Under the pieces are notes generated by a model, which ran no database searches, was not told the origin of the DNA, and saw only the letters and a program-made list of their open reading frames with translations. Below, in pieces: positions 18,966 through 42,831 of a stretch of DNA of 43,548 nucleotides. Positions within the stretch are counted from its first letter, which is position 1. Each line of letters starts with the position of its first letter. A program made the translations under genes and the position numbers. Source of the DNA: Nitrospirota bacterium (GTDB taxonomy: Bacteria > Nitrospinota_A > UBA7883 > JACRGQ01); the NCBI GenBank assembly GCA_024275955.1, contig JAJRYD010000052.1, positions 1 to 43,548 on the forward strand, read 5' to 3'.

Positions 18966-19232
18966 ATGAATGTTTCGGGGATAGTGATTATGACCATGCC
19001 CGATAAGACAGGGCAAGTTGTCGAGTCGCTAAAGGACTTTAGTGGGCTGGAGGTACACAAGGTTCTGAAAGACGGAAAGATAGTGGCCGTTTTGGAGCGG
19101 GAATCGACTGGCGAGGAGGTCAGCACGATTAGAAGAATGTACACCATCGACGGAGTGATAACAGCGACGATGGCTTATCACCATTTCGAGGAAGAGGTCA
19201 ACGCACTAGCGGATGAAATGGAAAGGGCCTAA
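18966..19232 (+). CDS. napD: NapD, Tat proofreading chaperone for NapA
   Basis: NapD binds the twin-arginine signal of NapA until the molybdenum cofactor is inserted. The 88-residue product has the ferredoxin-like fold signature: MNVSGIVIMTMPDKTGQVVE at the start, GLEVHKVLKDGKIVAVLE in the middle and TIDGVITATMAYHHFE near the end. An excellent AAGGAGG lies 8 nt before the ATG at 18966, preferred over the upstream in-frame codon. It stands immediately before napA. Confidence 0.92.
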   Translation: MNVSGIVIMTMPDKTGQVVESLKDFSGLEVHKVLKDGKIVAVLERESTGEEVSTIRRMYTIDGVITATMAYHHFEEEVNALADEMERA

Positions 19233-29438: not shown

Positions 29439-29851
29439 TACTATAGAAGCAACCTATAACTGGTTTGCTAATAGAGGGAGGCTCGTTTTTTCTGCTTTTG
29501 CTTACAGTCGGGTTCTTTGCGTTTTTCTATCTGATAGTTGCCGTTGTCCGATTGTCTTTACAGGCTCCTTGAACTGCGGCACAAGACCAAGACTAACGGT
29601 TTTGTACAGGGGGGGGCTATTGCCGAATGGCATAAATTTGATTTTGCTGTAAATTGCCAATCCCTAAAGGCTCTATTTTTACGAAGCTAGAAAATTAACC
29701 CCTCCTTAAAATGCTCAAAAACTCCTTTGGAAACAGTCCCACAGGGAGGAGTTGAAGGGGGTTCTCTCGCATCTTTGCAGGATATTTTTTATCGCTTAAG
29801 CTTTGGATAGTAGATACCGTATTGTTTGCTATAAAATGGCAGGTAAATTTA
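29439..29851. other. Gap between the cofactor operon and cas3, with nested inverted repeats
   Basis: No gene is supported. One hydrophobic frame near 29470-29570 (L-rich, ending LSLQAP) lacks a proper start. At 29697-29763 two nested inverted repeats stand out: an outer pair AACCCCTCCTT/AAGGGGGTT and an inner pair AACTCCT/AGGAGTT around a 20-nt loop. This could fold as a long RNA hairpin upstream of cas3 or be a remnant of a mobile element. A poly-G run lies near 29610. Confidence 0.4.
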
Positions 29852-32524
29852 ATGAAAAATTATTATCGCTACTGGGGGAAGTACAAAAAGTCGGAAGACA
29901 ATACTACTCACCATCTGCTACCGTACCACTCTCTCGATGTCGCAGCGGTAGCCAGCCTCATCCTGAAAGCCGATGGGAAGCTACGGGAGCGGTTTTCAGA
30001 TGCCTTTTCCATTAAAGAGGAATCTATTACCAGCTTTCTGCCTTTCCTGATTTGCCTGCACGATATCGGAAAGTTTTCATGGACTTTTCAGGCTCAAAGA
30101 GTAGACAGCCTCGCCTTCGTACATCATACCGCTCTTGGGCTTGAGTTATTTAAGAAAAGGGCGATAGATATTATTGTTAATGAAAATATTTTTCCTTTCG
30201 GTACGTCTTTAGGCCCCCGTGAGTTTTCATGCGGTCTGCAAACTTATGGCGCGGCGGTAACCGGCCACCACGGTCTCCCTCCAGAAACTGATAATCTGCG
30301 GAACAGGTTTGAGAAGTATTTTAAAGATGACGATATAAATTCCGTCTCCAGCTTTCTTCGCGGGTCGTCAAAAATTTTCTTTCCCCAAAACAGTAAGCTC
30401 GAATTTTATGGAGACTCTTTGGAAGATTCTGCCATAAAAGGTTCTTGGTTGCTTGCCGGTTTTACGGTTCTTTGCGACTGGCTTGGCTCTAACCAGAAGT
30501 TCTTCAGTTTTGTGGAAGAAAAAATGGAACTTATCTCTTATTGGGAGGAATATGCCCGCCCGCGGGCGAAAGAAGCGATAGAGTTTTCCGGCATACTTCC
30601 TTCCCGTCTTGGCAAAACTTCCAGTACTGCTGAGCTTTTCCCTGAAATAAAAAAAGCGAACAGAATGCAGAACGAGCTTGAAAAATTTGAGATTAAAAAC
30701 GAGCCTCAGCTTTTCATACTTGAAAACATCACAGGTTCCGGCAAGACCGAGGCGGCATTCGCGCTCGCGCAGAGGGTTATGTCGAAAGGCCTTGCCGAAG
30801 GAATATATATGGCGCTTCCCACTATGGCTACCACAAACGAAATTTACAAGCGTATCAAAAATAGTTATCGTGGCTTTTTCGGCGATGATGAACAGCCTTC
30901 GCTGGTTCTTGCCCATAGCGCGGCGGAACTGGCCAAACATTTCATGCACGTCGACCGAAAGAAGGAAGCTATCGGCTCAACAGATAGCGGGTATGACAGC
31001 ATGGAAGAAAGAATCGAGTGGCTTTCCGATAACAGAAAAAAATCGCTTCTGGCCGATATTGGCATTGGAACTATCGACCAGGCTCTAATGGCGGTAATCA
31101 AAAACAGGTACCAGTCGTTACGGCTTTTTGGGCTTGTCGGCAAGGTTTTGATTGTGGACGAGGTTCATGCTTACGACCGTTACATGAACCGCCTTTTAGA
31201 AAATCTTCTCCGTTTCCATCTGGAATATGGCGGTACGGCGATTCTCCTTTCGGCGACTCTCTCTCAAAAAACACGCGAAAAATTTCTTTCCATATATTCG
31301 CCTGAACAAGAGCGAGGGGGCAATCGGCTTGATGAAGTTTACCCGCTTTTAGCTGTGGCTTCCGCCGCGACTGTTGTAAAAACGCCGTTATTCTACGAAG
31401 AAAATAATTCCAGAAAAATAGATGTGGAGTACATTAATTTACCCGAAGAGGCGGAGAAAAAAATTATTGATAACGCTTCGCGTGGAGCCTGCTGTTGCTG
31501 GATAAGGAACACCGTTTCTGATGCGGTAGAATCTTTTAAAAGTCTGCGGAAGAAAGTCGACAAAAATAATATCATCCTCTTTCATGCCAGATTTAACCTT
31601 AAAGATAGGCTGGAGATTGAAAACAGGGTTCTTGAACTGTTCGGAAAAAAGAGCGATTTTAAAAAGCGTAAAGGGATGATTCTTATCGCAACGCAGGTGG
31701 TAGAGCAGTCGCTCGACCTCGATTTCGACTGCATGGTAACAGACCTTGCTCCCATTGATCTGGTGATACAGCGGGCCGGAAGGCTTTGCAGGCATACAAG
31801 GGACAAGGACGGCAATCTGAAAAACGGCACTCCCGACGAAAGGGGCAGGCTGACGCTTTTTGTTTACGGCCCGCCGTTTACCGAAAACCCGGATAAAGAA
31901 TGGTTCAAAAAAGTTTTCCCAAAAGGAGCTTATGTATATCCGGCTCATGGCGAGAATTGGCTTACCGCGAAACTTCTAATCGAGAATGGCGGCTGGGAGA
32001 TGCCGGACGATGCGCGCCGCTTGATAGAAGGTGTCTTTGGCGAAGATGTGGAAAAGCCCGAAGCGTTAAGAAATATTGATGGTAAAGTTCTCGGTGAGCA
32101 AATGGGTGAAGCCTCTCTTGCCGGTTTTAATTCGCTTGAATTTAACGAGGGGTATAAGGCAGGCTTTTCGTGGCAGACAGACGATAAATTTGCCCCTACA
32201 AGATCGAATGAGAAAAGTGTTCGCGTAAGGCTTGCCAAATGGGATGGAGAAAAGCTTTTACCGCTTGCCTGTTCGGACGATTACGCGTGGGAGCTTAGCG
32301 TTCTTTCAATTCCGGCTAGGGATATCCCAGAAGAACCGAAACCGGCAGACCCTGACATTTCAAAAGCTCTGGAGGAATTAAAAAAAGGATTCCCGAATAA
32401 ATCCAAATATGTTCCGATACTTCCATTTGTCAAAGATGGCGACAGCTTTAAATCCGAACTGCTGAATGATGGAAAAGTTGCAACTTTAAAGTATTCGAGT
32501 ATAATTGGTTTTACCGTATCTTAA
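29852..32524 (+). CDS. cas3: Cas3, type I-E nuclease-helicase
   Basis: Cas3 is recruited by Cascade, then nicks and degrades the target DNA. The 890-residue protein has the N-terminal HD nuclease (H26 in LPYHSLD, H70-D71 in CLHDIGKFSW), and a superfamily-2 helicase with Walker A GSGKT (K298), DEVH (436-439), SAT in LLSATLSQ, and motif VI QRAGRLCRH after TQVVEQSLDLDFD. A C-terminal domain follows. I chose the ATG at 29852 with an AGGTAA site; a TTG at 29822 is also in frame. The frame is intact. Confidence 0.95.
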   Translation: MKNYYRYWGKYKKSEDNTTHHLLPYHSLDVAAVASLILKADGKLRERFSDAFSIKEESITSFLPFLICLHDIGKFSWTFQAQRVDSLAFVHHTALGLELFKKRAIDIIVNENIFPFGTSLGPREFSCGLQTYGAAVTGHHGLPPETDNLRNRFEKYFKDDDINSVSSFLRGSSKIFFPQNSKLEFYGDSLEDSAIKGSWLLAGFTVLCDWLGSNQKFFSFVEEKMELISYWEEYARPRAKEAIEFSGILPSRLGKTSSTAELFPEIKKANRMQNELEKFEIKNEPQLFILENITGSGKTEAAFALAQRVMSKGLAEGIYMALPTMATTNEIYKRIKNSYRGFFGDDEQPSLVLAHSAAELAKHFMHVDRKKEAIGSTDSGYDSMEERIEWLSDNRKKSLLADIGIGTIDQALMAVIKNRYQSLRLFGLVGKVLIVDEVHAYDRYMNRLLENLLRFHLEYGGTAILLSATLSQKTREKFLSIYSPEQERGGNRLDEVYPLLAVASAATVVKTPLFYEENNSRKIDVEYINLPEEAEKKIIDNASRGACCCWIRNTVSDAVESFKSLRKKVDKNNIILFHARFNLKDRLEIENRVLELFGKKSDFKKRKGMILIATQVVEQSLDLDFDCMVTDLAPIDLVIQRAGRLCRHTRDKDGNLKNGTPDERGRLTLFVYGPPFTENPDKEWFKKVFPKGAYVYPAHGENWLTAKLLIENGGWEMPDDARRLIEGVFGEDVEKPEALRNIDGKVLGEQMGEASLAGFNSLEFNEGYKAGFSWQTDDKFAPTRSNEKSVRVRLAKWDGEKLLPLACSDDYAWELSVLSIPARDIPEEPKPADPDISKALEELKKGFPNKSKYVPILPFVKDGDSFKSELLNDGKVATLKYSSIIGFTVS

Positions 32525-32564
32525 CCATGGGGAGGGGGTTTGTTGATATGAGCGTTTGCTTGGA

Positions 32565-32586
32565 GGCAGGAGGTTTATTTCCTGCC
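32565..32586. other. Short hairpin between cas3 and the mini-array
   Basis: GGCAGGA and TCCTGCC form a 7-bp perfect stem with an 8-nt loop. It lies just 3' of the antisense guide unit and 40 bp after the cas3 stop. No T-run follows on either strand. It may end or trim either transcript. Confidence 0.35.
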
Positions 32587-32587
32587 C

Positions 32588-32677
32588 CCGTAAATCCCCA
32601 CGTATGTGGGGAACTTTCCGTTGCATTAATTAAATTGCCCCGAAACATCGGTTCATCCCAAAAACTTCAGGAACTAT
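32588..32677 (-). ncRNA. Degenerate minimal CRISPR unit antisense to the cas operon (CreA/CreR-like guide RNA)
   Basis: Read on the minus strand: pseudo-repeat 1 (32677-32649), a 32-nt pseudo-spacer (32648-32617), pseudo-repeat 2 (32616-32588). Lengths 29+32+29 equal the main array unit. Pseudo-repeat 1 has lost its strong stem but ends GGGATGAACCG, so the 8-nt crRNA handle ATGAACCG is exact. Pseudo-repeat 2 matches the array repeat at 23 of 29 positions. It keeps the full CCCCAC/GTGGGG stem, and the only change within the stem-loop (G to A) is in the loop, while its own handle is degraded. Thus exactly the parts needed for one mature crRNA survive. This fits CRISPR-like antitoxin or Cas-regulating RNAs known from other type I systems. 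Confidence 0.75.
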
Positions 32678-32684
32678 GTTCGCT

Positions 32685-32713
32685 ATCCTACTTAAAATAT
32701 CTCTATGTTGCAA
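32685..32713 (-). promoter_or_regulatory. Candidate promoter of the antisense guide RNA
   Basis: On the minus strand TTGCAA (32713-32708) and TAGGAT (32690-32685) are separated by 17 bp, each matching 4 of 6 consensus bases. The predicted start at about 32678 falls within a base or two of the first nucleotide of pseudo-repeat 1. The -35 lies inside the guide's own predicted target. Confidence 0.5.
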
Positions 32714-32736
32714 GATTTATTTCCCCGAAACATCTT
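32702..32736 (-). promoter_or_regulatory. Predicted Cascade target of the guide (AAG PAM plus 11-nt seed match)
   Basis: On the minus strand AAG (32736-32734) is followed by ATGTTTCGGGG (32733-32723), identical to the first 11 nt of the pseudo-spacer. Beyond that the match is patchy, although TGCAAC recurs in both with a 2-nt offset. AAG is the canonical interference PAM of type I-E in E. coli. Partial seed pairing would allow Cascade binding without Cas3 cleavage. The site ends 1 bp before the -35 of the candidate cas promoter. Confidence 0.65.
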
Positions 32737-32737
32737 C

Positions 32738-32765
32738 TTGTAATTCCCTTTTTTTATGTTATGCT
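32738..32765 (+). promoter_or_regulatory. Candidate promoter for the small ORF and cse1-cas2 operon
   Basis: TTGTAA (32738-32743) and TATGCT (32760-32765) are 16 bp apart, each with 4 of 6 consensus matches. The predicted start near 32772 coincides with an ATG at 32773. In E. coli the main Cascade promoter also lies between cas3 and casA. The guide target abuts the -35 on its upstream side. Confidence 0.45.
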
Positions 32766-32772
32766 CACCTAC

Positions 32773-32898
32773 ATGGATTTTATGGGTGTCTTCTTAAAAC
32801 TTCTGGCTGCAATATTGGCGGGTTATCTTTTCGGGGGTAAATATCGTAAAAAGAGTCTTTTTCGTATGGCAATAAAGATTGAGGTGGAAAGAAAATGA
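32773..32898 (+). CDS. Small hydrophobic/basic peptide upstream of cse1, possible CreT-like toxin
   Basis: The 41-codon frame begins MDFMGVFLKLLAAILAGYLF, a single predicted transmembrane segment, followed by a strongly basic tail (GGKYRKKSLFRM, then IKIEVERK). Its TGA overlaps the cse1 ATG (ATGA), so translation is likely coupled. There is no Shine-Dalgarno, but the candidate promoter would start RNA about 1 nt before the ATG at 32773, giving a leaderless message. An ATG at 32761 would give 45 residues. The same frame is open back to 32527, but that part runs through the antisense guide unit and is unlikely to be coding. A helix plus basic tail resembles small membrane toxins. A toxin role is inference. 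Confidence 0.45.
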   Translation: MDFMGVFLKLLAAILAGYLFGGKYRKKSLFRMAIKIEVERK

Positions 32899-34460
32899 AC
32901 CTTATAACAGATGCGTGGGTTCCTGTCATTCGCAAGGACGGGACTAAAGAGAAAATAGCTCCGCATCAGATTACGGAAAACCTTGATAGTAACCCTATAG
33001 TCTCTATTGATTCGCCGAGGCCGGATTTCAACGGCGCTCTTTTACAGTTTTTCATCGGCCTAATGCAGACAGCATTCGCCCCAAAGAGGGAGAGTGGCTG
33101 GCTGAACCGGATTGACAGCCCCCCAAGCCCTGAAGAGTTGAGGAAGAGCTTTTCCAAATTTGAACACGCTTTCGATCTCGATGGCGATGGCAAAAGATTC
33201 ATGCAGGAAGAGGGGCTTTCATCATCGGAAAGAGTTAACGAATGGCCGGTCTCTTTTTTGTTAATCGGTATGCCAACGGAGCAAACGGTAAAAGATAATA
33301 AAGACCATTTCGTCAAGCAGGGGAATTCTGACCGCCTCTGCACCCAATGTTCCGCCACCGCTCTTTTTTGTATGCAGACCAACGCCCCTTCGGGTGGAAG
33401 GGGGCATCTTACGTCGGTGAGGGGAGGCGGACCGCTTACAACTGTCATACTCGGCAAAAATTTATGGGAGACCGTCTGGTTTAATACAACCTGTGATGTT
33501 GAACGCAAACAGCCGCCGGAAGAAAAGATATTCCCGTGGCTCGCCGCTTTGCGAACAAGCGAAAATGGGATGATTACCACCAGCGATGATATCGACCCGT
33601 TACAGCTTTTCTGGGCTATGCCCAGAAGAATCCTGCTCGATTTTAATGAAAACGGCGACGGTAAATGCTCGGTATGCGGAGACGGTTCAAAGGGAACTGT
33701 TAAATCTTTTTGGACAAAAGGTTACGGCATCAAATACGATGGAGTCCACATCCATCCCCTCTCCCCATATTATTACAAGGATAACCTCCCCCTTCCATTA
33801 CACCTGAAAGAGAAAGCAGGGTACCGGCATTGGCTCGGTTTCATCCTTTCAAAAAAGGATAATGCTAACGGCAGGCCGTTACTCGACCCGGCGAAAACGG
33901 TTACAGATTTTCTCAACAGCGGAAGGGGAGAACGGAATTTTACCCTCTCCGCGTTCGGGTACGAAATGGACAACATGAAAGCTGTCTGCTGGCACGAAAG
34001 CAGGATGCCGGTTCTTCATCTATCCGAAAATATAAAAAACGATTTCGAGAACGCCGTTGAAAAATTCATATTAGCGGCGGAACAGGTAGCCGGCAATATC
34101 GTTGGGGCGATAAAAGAGGCGTGGTTCAAAAGAAAGAAAGATGCGAAAGGCGACTTCTCTTTTCTAAAGAGAAGATTTTGGGAAGAGACCGAAGTCGATT
34201 TTAATCAAACCGCGCTTGAAACAAGAAAACTGCTGGAGGCAGGAAAATCTCTTGAAGAAATTAAGAAAAACTGGCTGAAAACAATCTCCGATAAAGCGTT
34301 GGAAATATTCGATAGCGCTGCCCTTGCCGGGCCGATTGAAGATGGAGACCCAGCGAGAGTGGCTAGAGCTAGAAGGAATCTCGACAGGTATAACCGAGAC
34401 AGAAAAATAAAAAAAATACTCGAAATCGGGCTGGATGAACTGCCGGAGGATTCCGGCTGA
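32895..34460 (+). CDS. cse1: Cse1 (CasA, Cas8e), large subunit of Cascade
   Basis: Cse1 reads the PAM and recruits Cas3. The 521-residue protein has the family start MNLITDAWVPV, the early FNGALLQFFIGLMQTAF region, a zinc-type CSVCGDG pair zone (about 257-260) with CTQCSA earlier (about 150), and a C-terminal four-helix bundle. It is preceded by GAGGTGG with good spacing, and its ATG overlaps the stop of the small hydrophobic ORF. The length is close to that of E. coli CasA. Confidence 0.93.
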   Translation: MNLITDAWVPVIRKDGTKEKIAPHQITENLDSNPIVSIDSPRPDFNGALLQFFIGLMQTAFAPKRESGWLNRIDSPPSPEELRKSFSKFEHAFDLDGDGKRFMQEEGLSSSERVNEWPVSFLLIGMPTEQTVKDNKDHFVKQGNSDRLCTQCSATALFCMQTNAPSGGRGHLTSVRGGGPLTTVILGKNLWETVWFNTTCDVERKQPPEEKIFPWLAALRTSENGMITTSDDIDPLQLFWAMPRRILLDFNENGDGKCSVCGDGSKGTVKSFWTKGYGIKYDGVHIHPLSPYYYKDNLPLPLHLKEKAGYRHWLGFILSKKDNANGRPLLDPAKTVTDFLNSGRGERNFTLSAFGYEMDNMKAVCWHESRMPVLHLSENIKNDFENAVEKFILAAEQVAGNIVGAIKEAWFKRKKDAKGDFSFLKRRFWEETEVDFNQTALETRKLLEAGKSLEEIKKNWLKTISDKALEIFDSAALAGPIEDGDPARVARARRNLDRYNRDRKIKKILEIGLDELPEDSG

Positions 34461-34496: not shown

Positions 34497-35042
34497 ATGG
34501 CCGAAAAGAAATGGTTAAGTTTCAGTAAGGGAAAACCCGAAACCGAGATTCTTGTCGAGTGGTGGAAGTCTCTCGAAAAAGGGGGAAGGAGGGCGACGCT
34601 AAAAAGATGCGCAGAGGCAAAGGATGTTATTTTCACCAATTACTTTAGCCGCCTCCTTAACGAGCTGGGGAAGACCCACAAGACGAGCGTGGAAAAACTT
34701 TCTGCAGTCGCTGGGGTACTCGCGCATGTAAGTCATTACGACGAACATTTTTCCTCCGCCGGAGGCGAAAGCAAGGAAGGCTTTGGGTTCAATCCTTTCG
34801 CAAGACAGCTCGGCCTTCCAAGAGATGGGGGAAGCGGGGCGAGAGTAAGTGGGCTTCGATTCAGGCGGCTCATAAGCAGAAAGAGGCTTGATGAGCTTTA
34901 CCCTGCGGTCATAAGGGCTGTGCGTCTTATCGGCAACAAAGCCGACATCCCGAGCTTGGCAAACTCCATCTATTGGTGGAACGATAAGGTGAGAAAAGAA
35001 TGGGCGCTTGAGTATTACGCCGTAGCCGAAAAAGAAAAATAA
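34497..35042 (+). CDS. cse2: Cse2 (CasB), small subunit of Cascade
   Basis: Cse2 forms the inner belly dimer that stabilises the R-loop. The 181-residue protein is all-helical and basic, with WWKSLEKGGRRATLKRCA near the start and LRFRRLISRKRLDELYPAVIRAVRLI in the second half, shown here as adjoining family segments. A GAGGGAGG site precedes the ATG. It lies 36 bp after cse1 and 17 bp before cas7. Confidence 0.9.
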   Translation: MAEKKWLSFSKGKPETEILVEWWKSLEKGGRRATLKRCAEAKDVIFTNYFSRLLNELGKTHKTSVEKLSAVAGVLAHVSHYDEHFSSAGGESKEGFGFNPFARQLGLPRDGGSGARVSGLRFRRLISRKRLDELYPAVIRAVRLIGNKADIPSLANSIYWWNDKVRKEWALEYYAVAEKEK

Positions 35043-35059
35043 AAATAAAGGAGAAAATC

Positions 35060-36121
35060 ATGGATCGTTTTGTTCAGCTTCACCTTTTGACATCATACCC
35101 GCCGTCGAACCTTAACAGGGACGACCTCGGAAGGCCCAAAACCGCCATGATGGGCGGAAGCACGAGGCTTAGGATATCGTCGCAGTCGCTTAAGCGGGCA
35201 TGGCGAACTTCGGATATTTTCGAGGAGTCGCTAAAAGGGAGCATCGGCACAAGAACAAAGGAGATGGGAGTCAACGCCTATAAAATAATGATTGAAAAAG
35301 GCGCGGACGAGAAAAAGGCCAAAGAGTGGGCGGGAGAGATTGCCGCTTTATTCGGAAACCGGAAAAAGAAGAATAAAAAAAAGCCGCTCGAAGAGCTTGA
35401 AGTTGAGCAGTTGGTTCATTTCTCTCCAGAAGAAGTAAAAGGAATAGAAAAACTTGCGGAAGAACTGGCATCCGGCGAGAAAAAAGATATCGATGCGAAA
35501 GAAATCAATATTTTCAGAAAAGAACTTTCGGCATCCGACATAGCGCTTTTCGGAAGAATGCTTACCGCATCTCCCGGCGATAATGTAGAAGCCTCCACGC
35601 AGGTGGCTCACGCCATAACGATACACAAAGTAACAGTGGAGGACGATTTCTTTACGGCGGTGGACGACCTTAACGACGGGAGCGAGGACGCCGGTTCCGC
35701 CCATATGGGCGAGACGGAATTTTCCGCCGGTCTTTTTTACCTTTACATCTGCGTAGACCGCGCGCTTCTTATTGAAAACCTTAACGGCGATAACGGGCTA
35801 TGGAAAAAGACACTGGAGGCTTTGGTTAAAACTTCGGCGCAGGTGGCCCCAACCGGCAAGCAAAACAGTTTTGCCTCGCGCGCACGCGCTTCTTTCATCC
35901 TTGCCGAAAGGGGGAGCAACCAGCCGCGTTCCCTTTCGGTAGCTTTTCTGAACCCTGTGGAAAAAGGAGATTTTTTTGTCGAATCGAGGGAAAAGCTTGT
36001 TAACACGAAAGATAACATCGACAAGGTTTACGGCTTTTCCGGCACCCTCAGCAAAACGATGGATGCCGTTTTGGGCGAAGGCTCTTTGCAGGAAATTATA
36101 GATTTCGTAACGGAAGAATAA
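35060..36121 (+). CDS. cas7: Cas7e (Cse4/CasC), Cascade backbone
   Basis: Six copies of Cas7e coat the crRNA spacer. The 353-residue protein begins MDRFVQLHLLTSYPPSNLNR, then DDLGRPKTAMMGGSTRLRIS and SSQSLKRAWR, the hallmark of the family. Later blocks include VEASTQVAHAITIHKV, DDLNDGSEDAGSAHMGETEF and a C-terminal PRSLSVAFLNPV. A clean AAGGAGA site precedes the start. Confidence 0.96.
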   Translation: MDRFVQLHLLTSYPPSNLNRDDLGRPKTAMMGGSTRLRISSQSLKRAWRTSDIFEESLKGSIGTRTKEMGVNAYKIMIEKGADEKKAKEWAGEIAALFGNRKKKNKKKPLEELEVEQLVHFSPEEVKGIEKLAEELASGEKKDIDAKEINIFRKELSASDIALFGRMLTASPGDNVEASTQVAHAITIHKVTVEDDFFTAVDDLNDGSEDAGSAHMGETEFSAGLFYLYICVDRALLIENLNGDNGLWKKTLEALVKTSAQVAPTGKQNSFASRARASFILAERGSNQPRSLSVAFLNPVEKGDFFVESREKLVNTKDNIDKVYGFSGTLSKTMDAVLGEGSLQEIIDFVTEE

Positions 36122-36125
36122 ACAG

Positions 36126-36854
36126 ATGAAAGATTATCTCCTCTTTCGTCTTTACGGCGCGATGGCGTCGTGGGGCGATATAGCTGTCGGCGAGTACCGC
36201 CCCTCTTTTTCGCATCCGGGTAAGTCGTCGATAATCGGCCTCCTATCGCTTGCTCTTGGAATAAAAAGAAGCGAGGAAGAAAAAATCGCGTCGCTTGCAG
36301 GCTCATGCAGGTACGCGGTGATGGTAGATGCCCCCGGTTCTCCCTTGACCGATTACCACACCATACAGATACCGCCCAAGCGAAAGGGTGCCGTTCATTA
36401 CAGCCGAAAAGACGAACTATCTTCCGAAAGCCTCGGCACCATTCTTTCTTCAAGAGAGTACAGGTGCGACGCTCTCTATACGGTTGTTATCTGGATATCC
36501 GGCAAGGAACCTTTTTCGCTTGAAATGATAAAAGAAGGGCTTTTAAAGCCCCGCTTTACGCCGTATCTTGGAAGAAAATCGTGTCCCCTTGCTATATCGA
36601 TGGAGCCAAAAGTTCTGCGGGGCGATACAGTTATCTCCGCCATTAAAAAAGCCGGTTACGGCGATTACAACGGTCTTTTAAAATCGTTGATGAAAGGGGA
36701 TAGAAAAACGCTCCATTCGGAAGAGCCAGATACTGCCGGAATTAAACTTCCGTTCGAGATCGTAAGGCGCGATTCTGTTTTAAGCAGGGCAAGATGGCAG
36801 TTTGCCGACCGTGCCGAATATTGGGGGGATGTCCCGAAAGAGGAGGGTTTGTAA
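36126..36854 (+). CDS. cas5: Cas5e (CasD), crRNA 5'-handle binding subunit
   Basis: Cas5e caps the 8-nt crRNA handle. The 242-residue protein has the family start LLFRLYGAMASWGDIAVGEY, the PGKSSIIGLLSLALGIKR block, and the RAMP-type C-terminus. It starts 4 nt after cas7 and abuts cas6e. It would bind the handle ATGAACCG that is shared by the array repeats and pseudo-repeat 1. Confidence 0.94.
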   Translation: MKDYLLFRLYGAMASWGDIAVGEYRPSFSHPGKSSIIGLLSLALGIKRSEEEKIASLAGSCRYAVMVDAPGSPLTDYHTIQIPPKRKGAVHYSRKDELSSESLGTILSSREYRCDALYTVVIWISGKEPFSLEMIKEGLLKPRFTPYLGRKSCPLAISMEPKVLRGDTVISAIKKAGYGDYNGLLKSLMKGDRKTLHSEEPDTAGIKLPFEIVRRDSVLSRARWQFADRAEYWGDVPKEEGL

Positions 36855-37521
36855 ATGTATTTTTCAAAAGTCTCTCTCGATACCGGAGTTTCAGTTGGGA
36901 AGCTGGCGCGTATCGCCGTAAGCGATTATAAGGTTCACCAGCATATCTGGAACCTTTTTTCCGACGACCCAGATAGGAAGCGGGATTTTCTTTACCGCAT
37001 GGAAAAATCGAGAGACGGATACTTTTTCTACACTCTTTCCAACCGGCCTCCAGAAGATAAAGACGGCATCTGGAAAATCGAAACAAAAAAGTATGATCCA
37101 AAAGTAACGGAAGGTGAGCGGTTCGTATTTTCGCTAAGAGCAAATCCGGTAGTTACAAAAAAGGATGGTGCCGGAAAAAGAAAAAGGCATGACGTGGTGA
37201 TGGAGGCAAAGCACCGATGCAACAACAAAGATTTTGTATTGCGTGAAAAGGTGCAGGAACTTGGCGTAGAGTGGCTGGAAAAAAGGGGAGAGAAAAACGG
37301 TTTCGCGGTAAAGCCGGTGGTGGCAGAATCGTATTGCCAGCACCGTCTTTTCAAAAAGGCTAAAAAGGAAGAAAAGAACGACCCTATCCGTTTCAGCGCT
37401 ATAGATTTTTCTGGTCTCCTAAAAGTAACAGATAAGGAATTTTTTTTGTCTGCGCTTTATAAAGGAATAGGGCCGGCGAAAGGCTTTGGTTGCGGACTTC
37501 TTATGATTAAAAGAGCCAGCG

Positions 37522-37538
<17 letters not shown>
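36855..37538 (+). CDS. cas6e: Cas6e (CasE, Cse3), pre-crRNA endoribonuclease
   Basis: Cas6e cuts each repeat at the base of its hairpin and stays bound. The 227-residue protein has the family start MYFSKVSLDT, the catalytic-region SDYKVHQHIWNLF (Y25, H28), and the C-terminal glycine-rich RNA-binding loop GIGPAKGFGCGLL. An AGGAGGG site precedes it. It overlaps cas1 by 17 nt. Confidence 0.94.
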
Positions 37539-38740
<1,202 letters not shown>

Positions 38741-38836: not shown

Positions 38837-41800
38837 CTGTTCCCCACATGCGTGGGGATGAACCGCGGTGAAGCAACACGGCTCTGCGCTCCAGTATCTG
38901 TTCCCCACATGCGTGGGGATGAACCGCTTCTGCCGGTACAAAAGTTCGCATCGAGGAGCTGTTCCCCACATGCGTGGGGATGAACCGGCAATTCATACAA
39001 TTTTTTTGCTGACACTTCACTGTTCCCCACATGCGTGGGGATGAACCGGGATTTCTCTTCAGCTTCAAGCTCCTCGATGCCTGTTCCCCACATGCGTGGG
39101 GATGAACCATATTACCGATGAGACTCGGGCGATGATCAAACCTGTTCCCCACATGCGTGGGGATGAACCGTTTCTATGCCGTACTCTATCGATTCCATAC
39201 GGCTGTTCCCCACATGCGTGGGGATGAACCGAGTTGTACTACCAGAACGAGGATTCAGTTAGACTGTTCCCCACATGCGTGGGGATGAACCGATTTTTAG
39301 AGGGTAATCCTTTCACTGTAGAGTCTGTTCCCCACATGCGTGGGGATGAACCGCCTGCTCTGCATTACCTTATCCTTAAATACTTCTGTTCCCCACATGC
39401 GTGGGGATGAACCGCTCCTCGGCAGTACCGAAGCTCATGTAGCAATCTGTTCCCCACATGCGTGGGGATGAACCGGACTTTTGTAAGAAGGTTTTGGATA
39501 CGAATGCCTGTTCCCCACATGCGTGGGGATGAACCGACCCCTGTCTCGCCCAGCTTGGTTTTGAGTTCCTGTTCCCCACATGCGTGGGGATGAACCGGAT
39601 CCTCACGATGCAAAACGATAGCATGATCACTGTTCCCCACATGCGTGGGGATGAACCGGTACCTGTAGACCCTAAATATCATCCGGTGCCCTGTTCCCCA
39701 CATGCGTGGGGATGAACCGAGCTTACGGCATACAGCTACAAAGTTGACCCCCTGTTCCCCACATGCGTGGGGATGAACCGAGCGAGAGGAATATCGGCGT
39801 GACTTCATCGAGCTGTTCCCCACATGCGTGGGGATGAACCGCAGATAGATTCGTTCTGCTCTTTCACATACTGCTGTTCCCCACATGCGTGGGGATGAAC
39901 CGCGGTAAAGCAATACGGCTATGCGCTTAGGCATCTGTTCCCCACATGCGTGGGGATGAACCGGGGGGGTGAACCGTGACAACTCTGAGCATTAACTGTT
40001 CCCCACATGCGTGGGGATGAACCGACATCGAATCAACACTGTCGGGTCGTTGGCAACTGTTCCCCACATGCGTGGGGATGAACCGGACAAATACGCTCAT
40101 GTTTGGCTCGGTAAATACTGTTCCCCACATGCGTGGGGATGAACCGGGACATGGAAAACATTGGAAAAATGTCATGAGCTGTTCCCCACATGCGTGGGGA
40201 TGAACCGTAATGAGTAATTTATGACAAAATTAGAAAAATCTGTTCCCCACATGCGTGGGGATGAACCGGAGAGATAGATAAGCAAAAACGGATGTTTGTG
40301 CTGTTCCCCACATGCGTGGGGATGAACCGCCGATTGAGCTCGAGCCTCCCCCGACTGTTGTCTGTTCCCCACATGCGTGGGGATGAACCGAACTCAAGGA
40401 GGCTAAGATCGATGAGCGAGGTCTGTTCCCCACATGCGTGGGGATGAACCGCCATTGGTTCTGTATATCGACTTTACGAACTCCTGTTCCCCACATGCGT
40501 GGGGATGAACCGGAGTATCTGGTTTATATCGCTCATGAGAAAGCCTGTTCCCCACATGCGTGGGGATGAACCGCTTCCTTAACCGTTCTTTTGGACTGGA
40601 TAGAGCTGTTCCCCACATGCGTGGGGATGAACCGCAAAACGTCCACAGGATCAGTTTTGTGGCGAGCTGTTCCCCACATGCGTGGGGATGAACCGGCTCT
40701 GGTTTCTGCCATGCTGGGTATCGGAGGCTGTTCCCCACATGCGTGGGGATGAACCGCAAAACATCAAAACCAGAAAGACAATAAACTTCTGTTCCCCACA
40801 TGCGTGGGGATGAACCGAAAGTCTGCCTAATTATCGTCCTGATTTGCCACTGTTCCCCACATGCGTGGGGATGAACCGTAATGACCTGAACATTGTCTAA
40901 GCCATACTGTCTGTTCCCCACATGCGTGGGGATGAACCGAATTAGGAATCGAACTAGAAAAGATTATTGAACTGTTCCCCACATGCGTGGGGATGAACCG
41001 TCCTCCCAATCTTTGCAGATAAGCATAATAACCTGTTCCCCACATGCGTGGGGATGAACCGGTTATTATACAGATTTTGTTCCTCATGATGCGGCTGTTC
41101 CCCACATGCGTGGGGATGAACCGAACGATATAGTCAGCATGCAATAGCTATTGAACTGTTCCCCACATGCGTGGGGATGAACCGTTGTTCTTTTTGACAC
41201 TGAAACATATGTATATCTGTTCCCCACATGCGTGGGGATGAACCGCCACATTATAGGTCGAAAACTTTACGTTGATTCTGTTCCCCACATGCGTGGGGAT
41301 GAACCGGCGGCACTACCCAAACATTTAACTGTAGACCGCTGTTCCCCACATGCGTGGGGATGAACCGCTCAGCGTGATGAGCGTAAACAGTCCCTAGAAC
41401 TGTTCCCCACATGCGTGGGGATGAACCGATATTTCTGCCCAGTTGTGGTTGGCTCCATTTCTGTTCCCCACATGCGTGGGGATGAACCGACACGAAAGAA
41501 CCGCTGGGATTTCTGATACAGCTGTTCCCCACATGCGTGGGGATGAACCGCGGTAATAATCATCGACATAGCTAGCGGAAGGCTGTTCCCCACATGCGTG
41601 GGGATGAACCGCAATTCTAATTGACCAATGGCACCGAGAACGACTGTTCCCCACATGCGTGGGGATGAACCGGCAAAAGGCAGAGGAAAAGAGTTACCAC
41701 AAAACTGTTCCCCACATGCGTGGGGATGAACCGTGGATAGCGGCACTAAAGCCGTGCATATTTATCTGTTCCCCACATGCGTGGGGATGAACCGAACAGA

Positions 41801-42831
41801 AACCCGACCTTGACAATTTATTAAAACTGTTCCCCACATGCGTGGGGATGAACCGCCTGGGGCGATTGCCGCTGGTGTGTCGCTTATCTGTTCCCCACAT
41901 GCGTGGGGATGAACCGCTTTCAAACAGCGTGATATTAACGATGAGGGCCTGTTCCCCACATGCGTGGGGATGAACCGACGCTGACCAGCTGGCCGATACT
42001 TGCGATGGTCTGTTCCCCACATGCGTGGGGATGAACCGTACCCTCGCAGGAGCCGCGACATCATTAACAACTGTTCCCCACATGCGTGGGGATGAACCGC
42101 CAACCAAACAAGAGGCCGATGATCTCCAAGACTGTTCCCCACATGCGTGGGGATGAACCGGTGACGTTGCCACTGACGAATACGTGAGGCGCCTGTTCCC
42201 CACATGCGTGGGGATGAACCGCGTATAGTACAATTCGGTTTTTTCGGTCGGGACTGTTCCCCACATGCGTGGGGATGAACCGGTTCCTGGTAAATTTGTA
42301 AGAGACCCAGACGCCTGTTCCCCACATGCGTGGGGATGAACCGTTTGGACTCAAACATCTCCTCGGGGATTTTTACTGTTCCCCACATGCGTGGGGATGA
42401 ACCGCACTGACCCAGACTTGGTATAGGGTTGCATAACTGTTCCCCACATGCGTGGGGATGAACCGATATAGACTTGAATGTGTTGATTCCTGAAGGGCTG
42501 TTCCCCACATGCGTGGGGATGAACCGCTCATTCTTGGGCTCAAGGCAGCAAAAAAAGCCTGTTCCCCACATGCGTGGGGATGAACCGTACGCGATACAGA
42601 TACGTTTTTACCGACGGCACTGTTCCCCACATGCGTGGGGATGAACCGGACACGGGAGACCGTGGAAAAATGTTATGAGACTGTTCCCCACATGCGTGGG
42701 GATGAACCGTGAAATTGGAGATATTTGTCGGATTGTGGATTCTGTTCCCCACATGCGTGGGGATGAACCGCTGTAGCCAAAAAGGAGCGCGAAGCCGAAG
42801 CCCTGTTCCCCACATGCGTGGGGATGAAAGT
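38837..42831 (+). CRISPR. Type I-E CRISPR array, 66 repeats and 65 spacers
   Basis: The repeat is 29 nt, beginning CTGTTCCCCACATG, with a CCCCAC/GTGGGG stem and ending ATGAACCG, the crRNA handle. Spacers are 32 nt (61-bp period), except the 37th (41062-41094), which is 33 nt. Repeat 5 (39081) ends in A instead of G. The last repeat (from 42803) loses the final CCG, marking the distal end. The leader is next to cas2, so the array is read on the plus strand. Sixty-four of 66 repeats look identical. The reverse-strand frames through the array are artefacts of the repeat. Confidence 0.98.

Follow-up and report, generated by a model that had tools for sequence, protein, structure and literature searches.

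CreA RNAs, the guides of CreTA modules, have been described from the type I-B systems of Haloarcula and Halobacterium and from a type I-F system of Acinetobacter (PMC8501985, PMC9458426, PMC10097628). In CrePA the gene repressed by CreA encodes CreP, a KilA-N protein toxin (PMC12737573). CreR guides act on the effector itself: according to review descriptions, they autorepress type I-B, I-E and V-A systems through partial complementarity to a promoter (PMC13131331; PMC12737573; PMC12948488). What, then, is the short antisense element lying between cas3 and cas8e in a Nitrospirota bacterium? The window (the whole stretch of 43,548 nucleotides analysed here) carries a complete type I-E operon, in which cas3, cas8e, cse2, cas7e, cas5e, cas6e, cas1e and cas2e, assigned with Pfam and PADLOC, are followed by the array (Table 1). 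A preliminary description had called the element CreA/CreR-like. Of the two names CreR fits better, as the target abuts the predicted promoter of the cas8e operon and no toxin gene is evident. For these two reasons CreR is preferred over CreA, and the element is very likely a creR gene, encoding a guide that would let Cascade repress cas8e and the genes that follow it without cleavage. The kind is already reported; the window's copy adds a member to it.

A degenerate mini-array inside the cas operon

A gap of 370 bp separates cas3 from cas8e, and there, within the operon that it would serve, sits the mini-array, which consists of two degenerate repeats (psiR1 and psiR2) and one spacer, antisense to cas. 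Repeat alignment and folds bear out what had first been noticed, namely two diverged repeats opposite to the main array and 61 bp apart, the leading one with an exact handle and the trailing one with the whole stem. This distance of exactly 61 bp leaves a pseudo-spacer of 32 nt, the canonical length. The 3′ end of psiR1 is an intact GGGATGAACCG and, although little of the original stem sequence is left, the precursor fold still gives a 7-bp hairpin that closes at the handle. In psiR2 the hairpin and its energy are the same as those of the array repeat (CTGTTCCCCACATGCGTGGGGATGAACCG), and both degenerate repeats retain hairpins that end at the Cas6e cut point. In other loci the psiR1 hairpins are rebuilt out of different sequences, as fold comparison showed. 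Is the resemblance of psiR2 to the array repeat meaningful? Nothing else in the window outside the array matches as well (the next best reaches 18/29), and the top repeat scores across 30 Markov windows were 17–20. The 10-bp hairpin just beyond psiR2 is a possible 3′ border of the guide RNA. An Rfam search of 32400–32950 found nothing near the threshold of any family. Within the main array, the units at 38837–38926 and 39874–39963 are 92% identical over repeat, spacer and repeat, their spacers being near-copies, as if from related targets.

Table 1. Features of the type I-E locus and its mini-array (positions in the window)
Feature	Position	Strand	Remarks
cas3	29822..32524	+	Pfam/PADLOC Cas3e
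10-bp hairpin, GGGGGCAGGA...TCCTGCCTCC	32562..32589	-	just 3′ of psiR2; without T-run; precursor fold, read from sequence
psiR2, second degenerate repeat, AAGTTCCCCACATACGTGGGGATTTACGG	32588..32616	-	23/29 against array repeat; stem whole, handle lost
pseudo-spacer, ATGTTTCGGGGCAATTTAATTAATGCAACGGA	32617..32648	-	32 nt; PAM-proximal matched part 32648-32634
psiR1, 5′ degenerate repeat, ATAGTTCCTGAAGTTTTTGGGATGAACCG	32649..32677	-	17/29 against array repeat; 7-bp hairpin
psiR1 5′ handle, exact, ATGAACCG	32656-32649	-	last 8 nt of psiR1
possible guide-RNA promoter	32685..32713	-	-35 TTGCAA 32713-32708, 17 bp, -10 TAGGAT 32690-32685; prediction, read from sequence
protospacer	32702..32733	-	matches spacer nt 1-11 and 13-15, mostly mismatched beyond
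PAM AAG (CTT on + strand)	32734..32736	-	
predicted promoter, cas8e onward	32738..32765	+	-35 TTGTAA 32738-32743, 16-bp spacing, -10 TATGCT 32760-32765, TG extension; weight-matrix scan
41-codon open frame, MDFMGVFLKLLAAILAGYLFGGKYRKKSLFRMAIKIEVERK	32773..32898	+	between predicted promoter and cas8e; TGA/ATG (ATGA) overlap with cas8e
cas8e (cse1/casA)	32895..34460	+	Pfam Cse1 4.7e-101; first gene 3′ of predicted repressed promoter
cse2 (cas11e), cas7e, cas5e, cas6e, cas1e, cas2e	34497..38740	+	Pfam/PADLOC
main CRISPR array	38837..42831	+ (strand of cas)	66 repeats, 61-bp period

A PAM-flanked partial match to the same gap

The spacer's first 11 nt are repeated on the same strand at 32733–32723, 85 bp away and directly after AAG. 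This much had been seen before; the earlier reading had missed that the match also covers nt 13–15, nt 12 being the sole mismatch among the first 15. In type I effectors nt 12 is a flipped-out, unpaired position (PMC8501985). The pairing here follows the seed rule of CreA, by which nt 1–5 and 7–11 pair to a PAM-flanked site (PMC8501985). PAM plus seed (AWGATGTTNCGGGG) has a single occurrence in the 2.45-Mb genome. When 370-bp gaps of the same dinucleotide make-up were drawn at random, the seed turned up in 27 of 20,000 draws and the seed behind the PAM in 1 of 20,000. This uniqueness, the random-gap draws and the recurrence described below rule out a chance match as the explanation. Another exact copy of the 11-mer, on the + strand at 18970, was considered as a target and set aside: it has TGA in place of the PAM, falls where an unrelated small gene begins and is probably there by chance. 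Could the element be an ordinary stray array unit? A canonical array has near-identical repeats, several spacers and no self-match, whereas this one has repeats at 17/29 and 23/29, one spacer and a self-match; the divergent repeats and the match within its own locus led to the rejection of this reading.

Recurrence among type I-E loci

Cas8e relatives were gathered from several phyla and oriented, which gave 58 type I-E loci, sampled on the similarity of their Cas8e. In the 700 bp preceding each cas8e the scan looked for a handle and, after it, a spacer with a seed that is repeated next to AAG, AGG, ATG or GAG as the preceding PAM. The strict rule selected on nt 1–5 and 7–11 and called for a recognisable repeat; the comparison loci are mostly metagenome bins or genomes, and a relaxed class was judged by eye. 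Lack of a conserved pseudo-repeat and seed-target pair in relatives had been set beforehand as grounds to refute the first reading. The outcome was the opposite: the pair recurs under the strict rule in 10 Cas8e loci besides the window (L018, L019, L022, L030, L029, L040, L043, L048, L049 and L069), although L022 and L030 are near-copies and L040 and L043 are two operons of one genome. The relaxed class adds L007 (8/10, AGG), L016 (8/10, with nt 13–17 and 19–23 matching) and L024 (10/10, AAA). A control scan within cas8e gave matches in 4 of the 58 loci, all with weak handles (7–8 of 11) and 9/10 seeds. The same arrangement is found in many unrelated bacteria, and the comparison argues strongly for the core of the earlier proposal, a guide from a degenerate mini-array that would bring Cascade, by a match limited to the seed, to a place in the interval from cas3 to cse1.

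The length of the gap proved a good guide. Once the ends of cas3 had been mapped, 13 loci proved to have a gene-free interval of 200–425 bp (202–422 bp as measured) between cas3 and cas8e, and all 13 have a mini-array whose guide partly matches a PAM-flanked site, 10 by the strict rule and 3 in the relaxed class, which for the sampled loci amounts to a search rule; where it is 70 bp or less, none of 34 loci in the 58-locus set has a mini-array. Two longer gaps lacking one, in L031 and L033, contain other genes. Those of L033 are two small genes that look by eye like a BrnT/BrnA-type toxin-antitoxin pair. L048 has the mini-array, with no cas3 detected upstream. Outside the sample, among plasmids with named hosts, those from Roseomonas marmotae (gap 147) and from Pseudoalteromonas NC201 fit and one from Acidiphilium cryptum fits weakly (8/10); in Methylobacterium currus, with a 201-bp gap, a matched target was not found. 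On the Pseudoalteromonas sp. NC201 plasmid (pNC201, L079) two tandem AAG-flanked targets, at about 1082 and 1120, lie upstream of cas8e with a single guide, and a 41-aa frame stands ahead of cas8e.

How do guide and target pair across these loci? Over the 11 strict loci there are no mismatches at nt 1–5, ten at nt 6, none at 7–8, two at 9 and none at 10–11, then seven at nt 12, one each at 13 and 14, three at 15 and, from 16 onward, a rise to near random. The scan itself selected nt 1–5 and 7–11, so the independent facts are the matching of nt 13–15 and the drift at 6 and 12. Positions 13–15, outside the selection, give 33 comparisons, of which 28 are matches (p about 1e-12, some of the loci being relatives). 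L019 and L069 share 91% Cas8e identity; their spacers and targets are quite different and pairing is kept in each, so that seed and target have changed together. Spacers are shortened to about 20 nt in L018, L019, L069, L022/L030, L040 and L043; a spacer of this length would by itself limit the R-loop.

Placed on a quickly built Cas8e tree, the trait requires 13 changes, and branches with good support make at least 8 of these unavoidable. The loci around the window on the tree lack a mini-array, its nearest type I-E relatives have no gap, and within its own class no relative with the element was found. Gain or loss of the mini-array has thus been frequent on this tree, and the window's copy is either an independent gain or a survivor. 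Is it a decaying relic, a self-targeting spacer unit acquired ectopically near its own operon and now degenerating without function? The worn repeats and the lack of the element in the nearest relatives are what one would expect of such a unit. Random decay, however, would not be expected to leave the handle, the hairpins, the PAM and the seed intact and let only positions 6, 12 and 16 onward drift, and the same pattern is found in many lineages, with pairing retained while both sides change. We therefore consider a relic very unlikely.

Predicted promoters and a model of autorepression

Promoters were predicted with an E. coli-like weight matrix drawn from general knowledge, which may not suit this organism. 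The predicted cas8e-operon promoter is the top-scoring + strand promoter of the gap, and its -35 begins 1 bp beyond the PAM. It agrees with the sigma-70 consensus, which may not be that of the host, at 8 of 12 positions plus the TG extension; a simple consensus scan gave no site at the target, the window's promoter falling under its cut-off. Across 17 loci, some of them related, there are 12, window included, in which the Cascade footprint is overlapped or abutted by the best + strand promoter, against 3.9 expected. The -35 begins at the PAM edge in L019, L069, L029 and the window, and the protospacer overlaps the promoter core in L040, L043 and L024.

It seems reasonable to propose the following sequence of events. 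The mini-array would be transcribed on the minus strand into a crRNA-like guide, which Cas6e would cut at both hairpins to leave a handle-spacer-hairpin RNA of about 61 nt with the 5′ end AUGAACCG. Cascade loaded with this guide would bind the AAG-flanked protospacer adjoining the predicted cas8e-operon promoter. As pairing is confined to nt 1–11 and 13–15, the R-loop would be short, enough to block RNA polymerase and too little to license cleavage by Cas3. Cascade would then sterically occlude the promoter and repress cas8e-cse2-cas7-cas5-cas6-cas1-cas2. Should Cascade be drawn off by array crRNAs or anti-CRISPRs, the promoter would be relieved and more Cascade would be made. That Cascade so monitors its own integrity, as the preliminary description suggested, would follow by analogy from the general logic of CreR and CreTA.

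Is the guide perhaps mainly repressing itself? The -35 of its own predicted promoter falls within the protospacer, so it may repress itself too. As the main function, with repression of cas minor, autoregulation is highly improbable, given that none of L018, L048, L049 and L076 has its target in the same-strand region upstream of the guide, while in L018, L049 and L076 the best + strand promoter still overlaps the target.

The short frame ahead of cas8e

What would the repressed transcript encode ahead of cas8e? A CreTA- or CrePA-like module would place there a small toxic peptide or RNA, set free on loss of Cascade, for which the 41-codon frame is the candidate. One + frame stays open through the entire gap, as in 0.25% of shuffles, and its C-terminal 41 aa resemble a membrane peptide whose tail is basic. 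In L069, L040, L043, L024 and L016, too, frames of about 40 aa overlap cas8e, several of them with a common motif. Yet the window's frame, which is the gap's only long one on the + strand, lacks that motif, has no homologue and gave no Pfam or PADLOC match; its codon score lies midway between coding and non-coding, and it overlaps the ribosome-binding region of cas8e. Moreover, L019, L029 and L022/L030 have target and guide with little room and no such peptide. A toxin module is thus unlikely, and repression of the cas genes by a CreR guide is the reading kept here.

The motif common to several of these short frames reads hIRhhLrLxrWLxhEhD, and the frame of L043 has an apparent frameshift near its start. 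They are possibly a small peptide family of CreR-bearing type I-E operons. The peptides of L069, L040, L024 and L016 are cationic or of membrane type. It is improbable, though conceivable, that the guide-controlled promoter also drives a peptide gene of about 40 codons, which would unite Cas autorepression and a Cascade-repressed peptide toxin or sensor in one module. On the Acidiphilium cryptum plasmid pACRY02 (L080, gap 1205–1494) a 12-codon mini-frame, ATG AGA CGG AGA TAC CGG ATA ..., lies between target and cas8e; with AGA codons near its start it recalls, by analogy, the tRNA-sequestering CreT toxins.

Comparison with known systems

If the model is true, a feedback loop that reads free Cascade would set the output of many type I-E operons, which would bear on the balance between immunity and autoimmunity and on the response to anti-CRISPRs. 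The pair L019 and L069, together with the free positions 6 and 12, offers natural material on the rules of pairing.

The window's own type I-E array shares repeat ancestry, the 61-bp period, the handle and the AAG PAM logic with the mini-array, which differs from it by its single spacer, degenerate repeats and seed-only match to its own locus. CrePA resembles the element in Cascade-guided repression beside cas genes, here predicted, but Pfam and PADLOC annotate neither a KilA-N gene nor any other protein gene within the gap. The likeness to CreA is closer: the anatomy is the same, with two diverged repeats, psiR1 the more worn, and an 8-nt 5′ handle (PMC8501985, PMC9458426), and the seed is that of I-B CreA, nt 1–5 and 7–11 with positions 6 and 12 free (PMC8501985). 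Unlike CreTA, the locus has no demonstrable toxin RNA gene, and its target is next to the predicted promoter of cas8e. CreR is the nearest of all in its features: a degenerate mini-CRISPR beside cas genes, with two repeats that retain the Cas6 hairpin and a psiR1 that retains the 5′ handle, and a PAM-flanked, seed-limited complementarity, mismatched beyond the seed, adjoining a predicted cas promoter, from which autorepression by Cascade would be expected. Compared with CreRs as review descriptions present them, the window's lineage is new; its mini-array runs antisense to cas and keeps a full-length 32-nt spacer where several relatives have about 20 nt. Sequence alone thus points to a self-targeting guide that appears to be under selection, in a lineage of which few members have been sampled.
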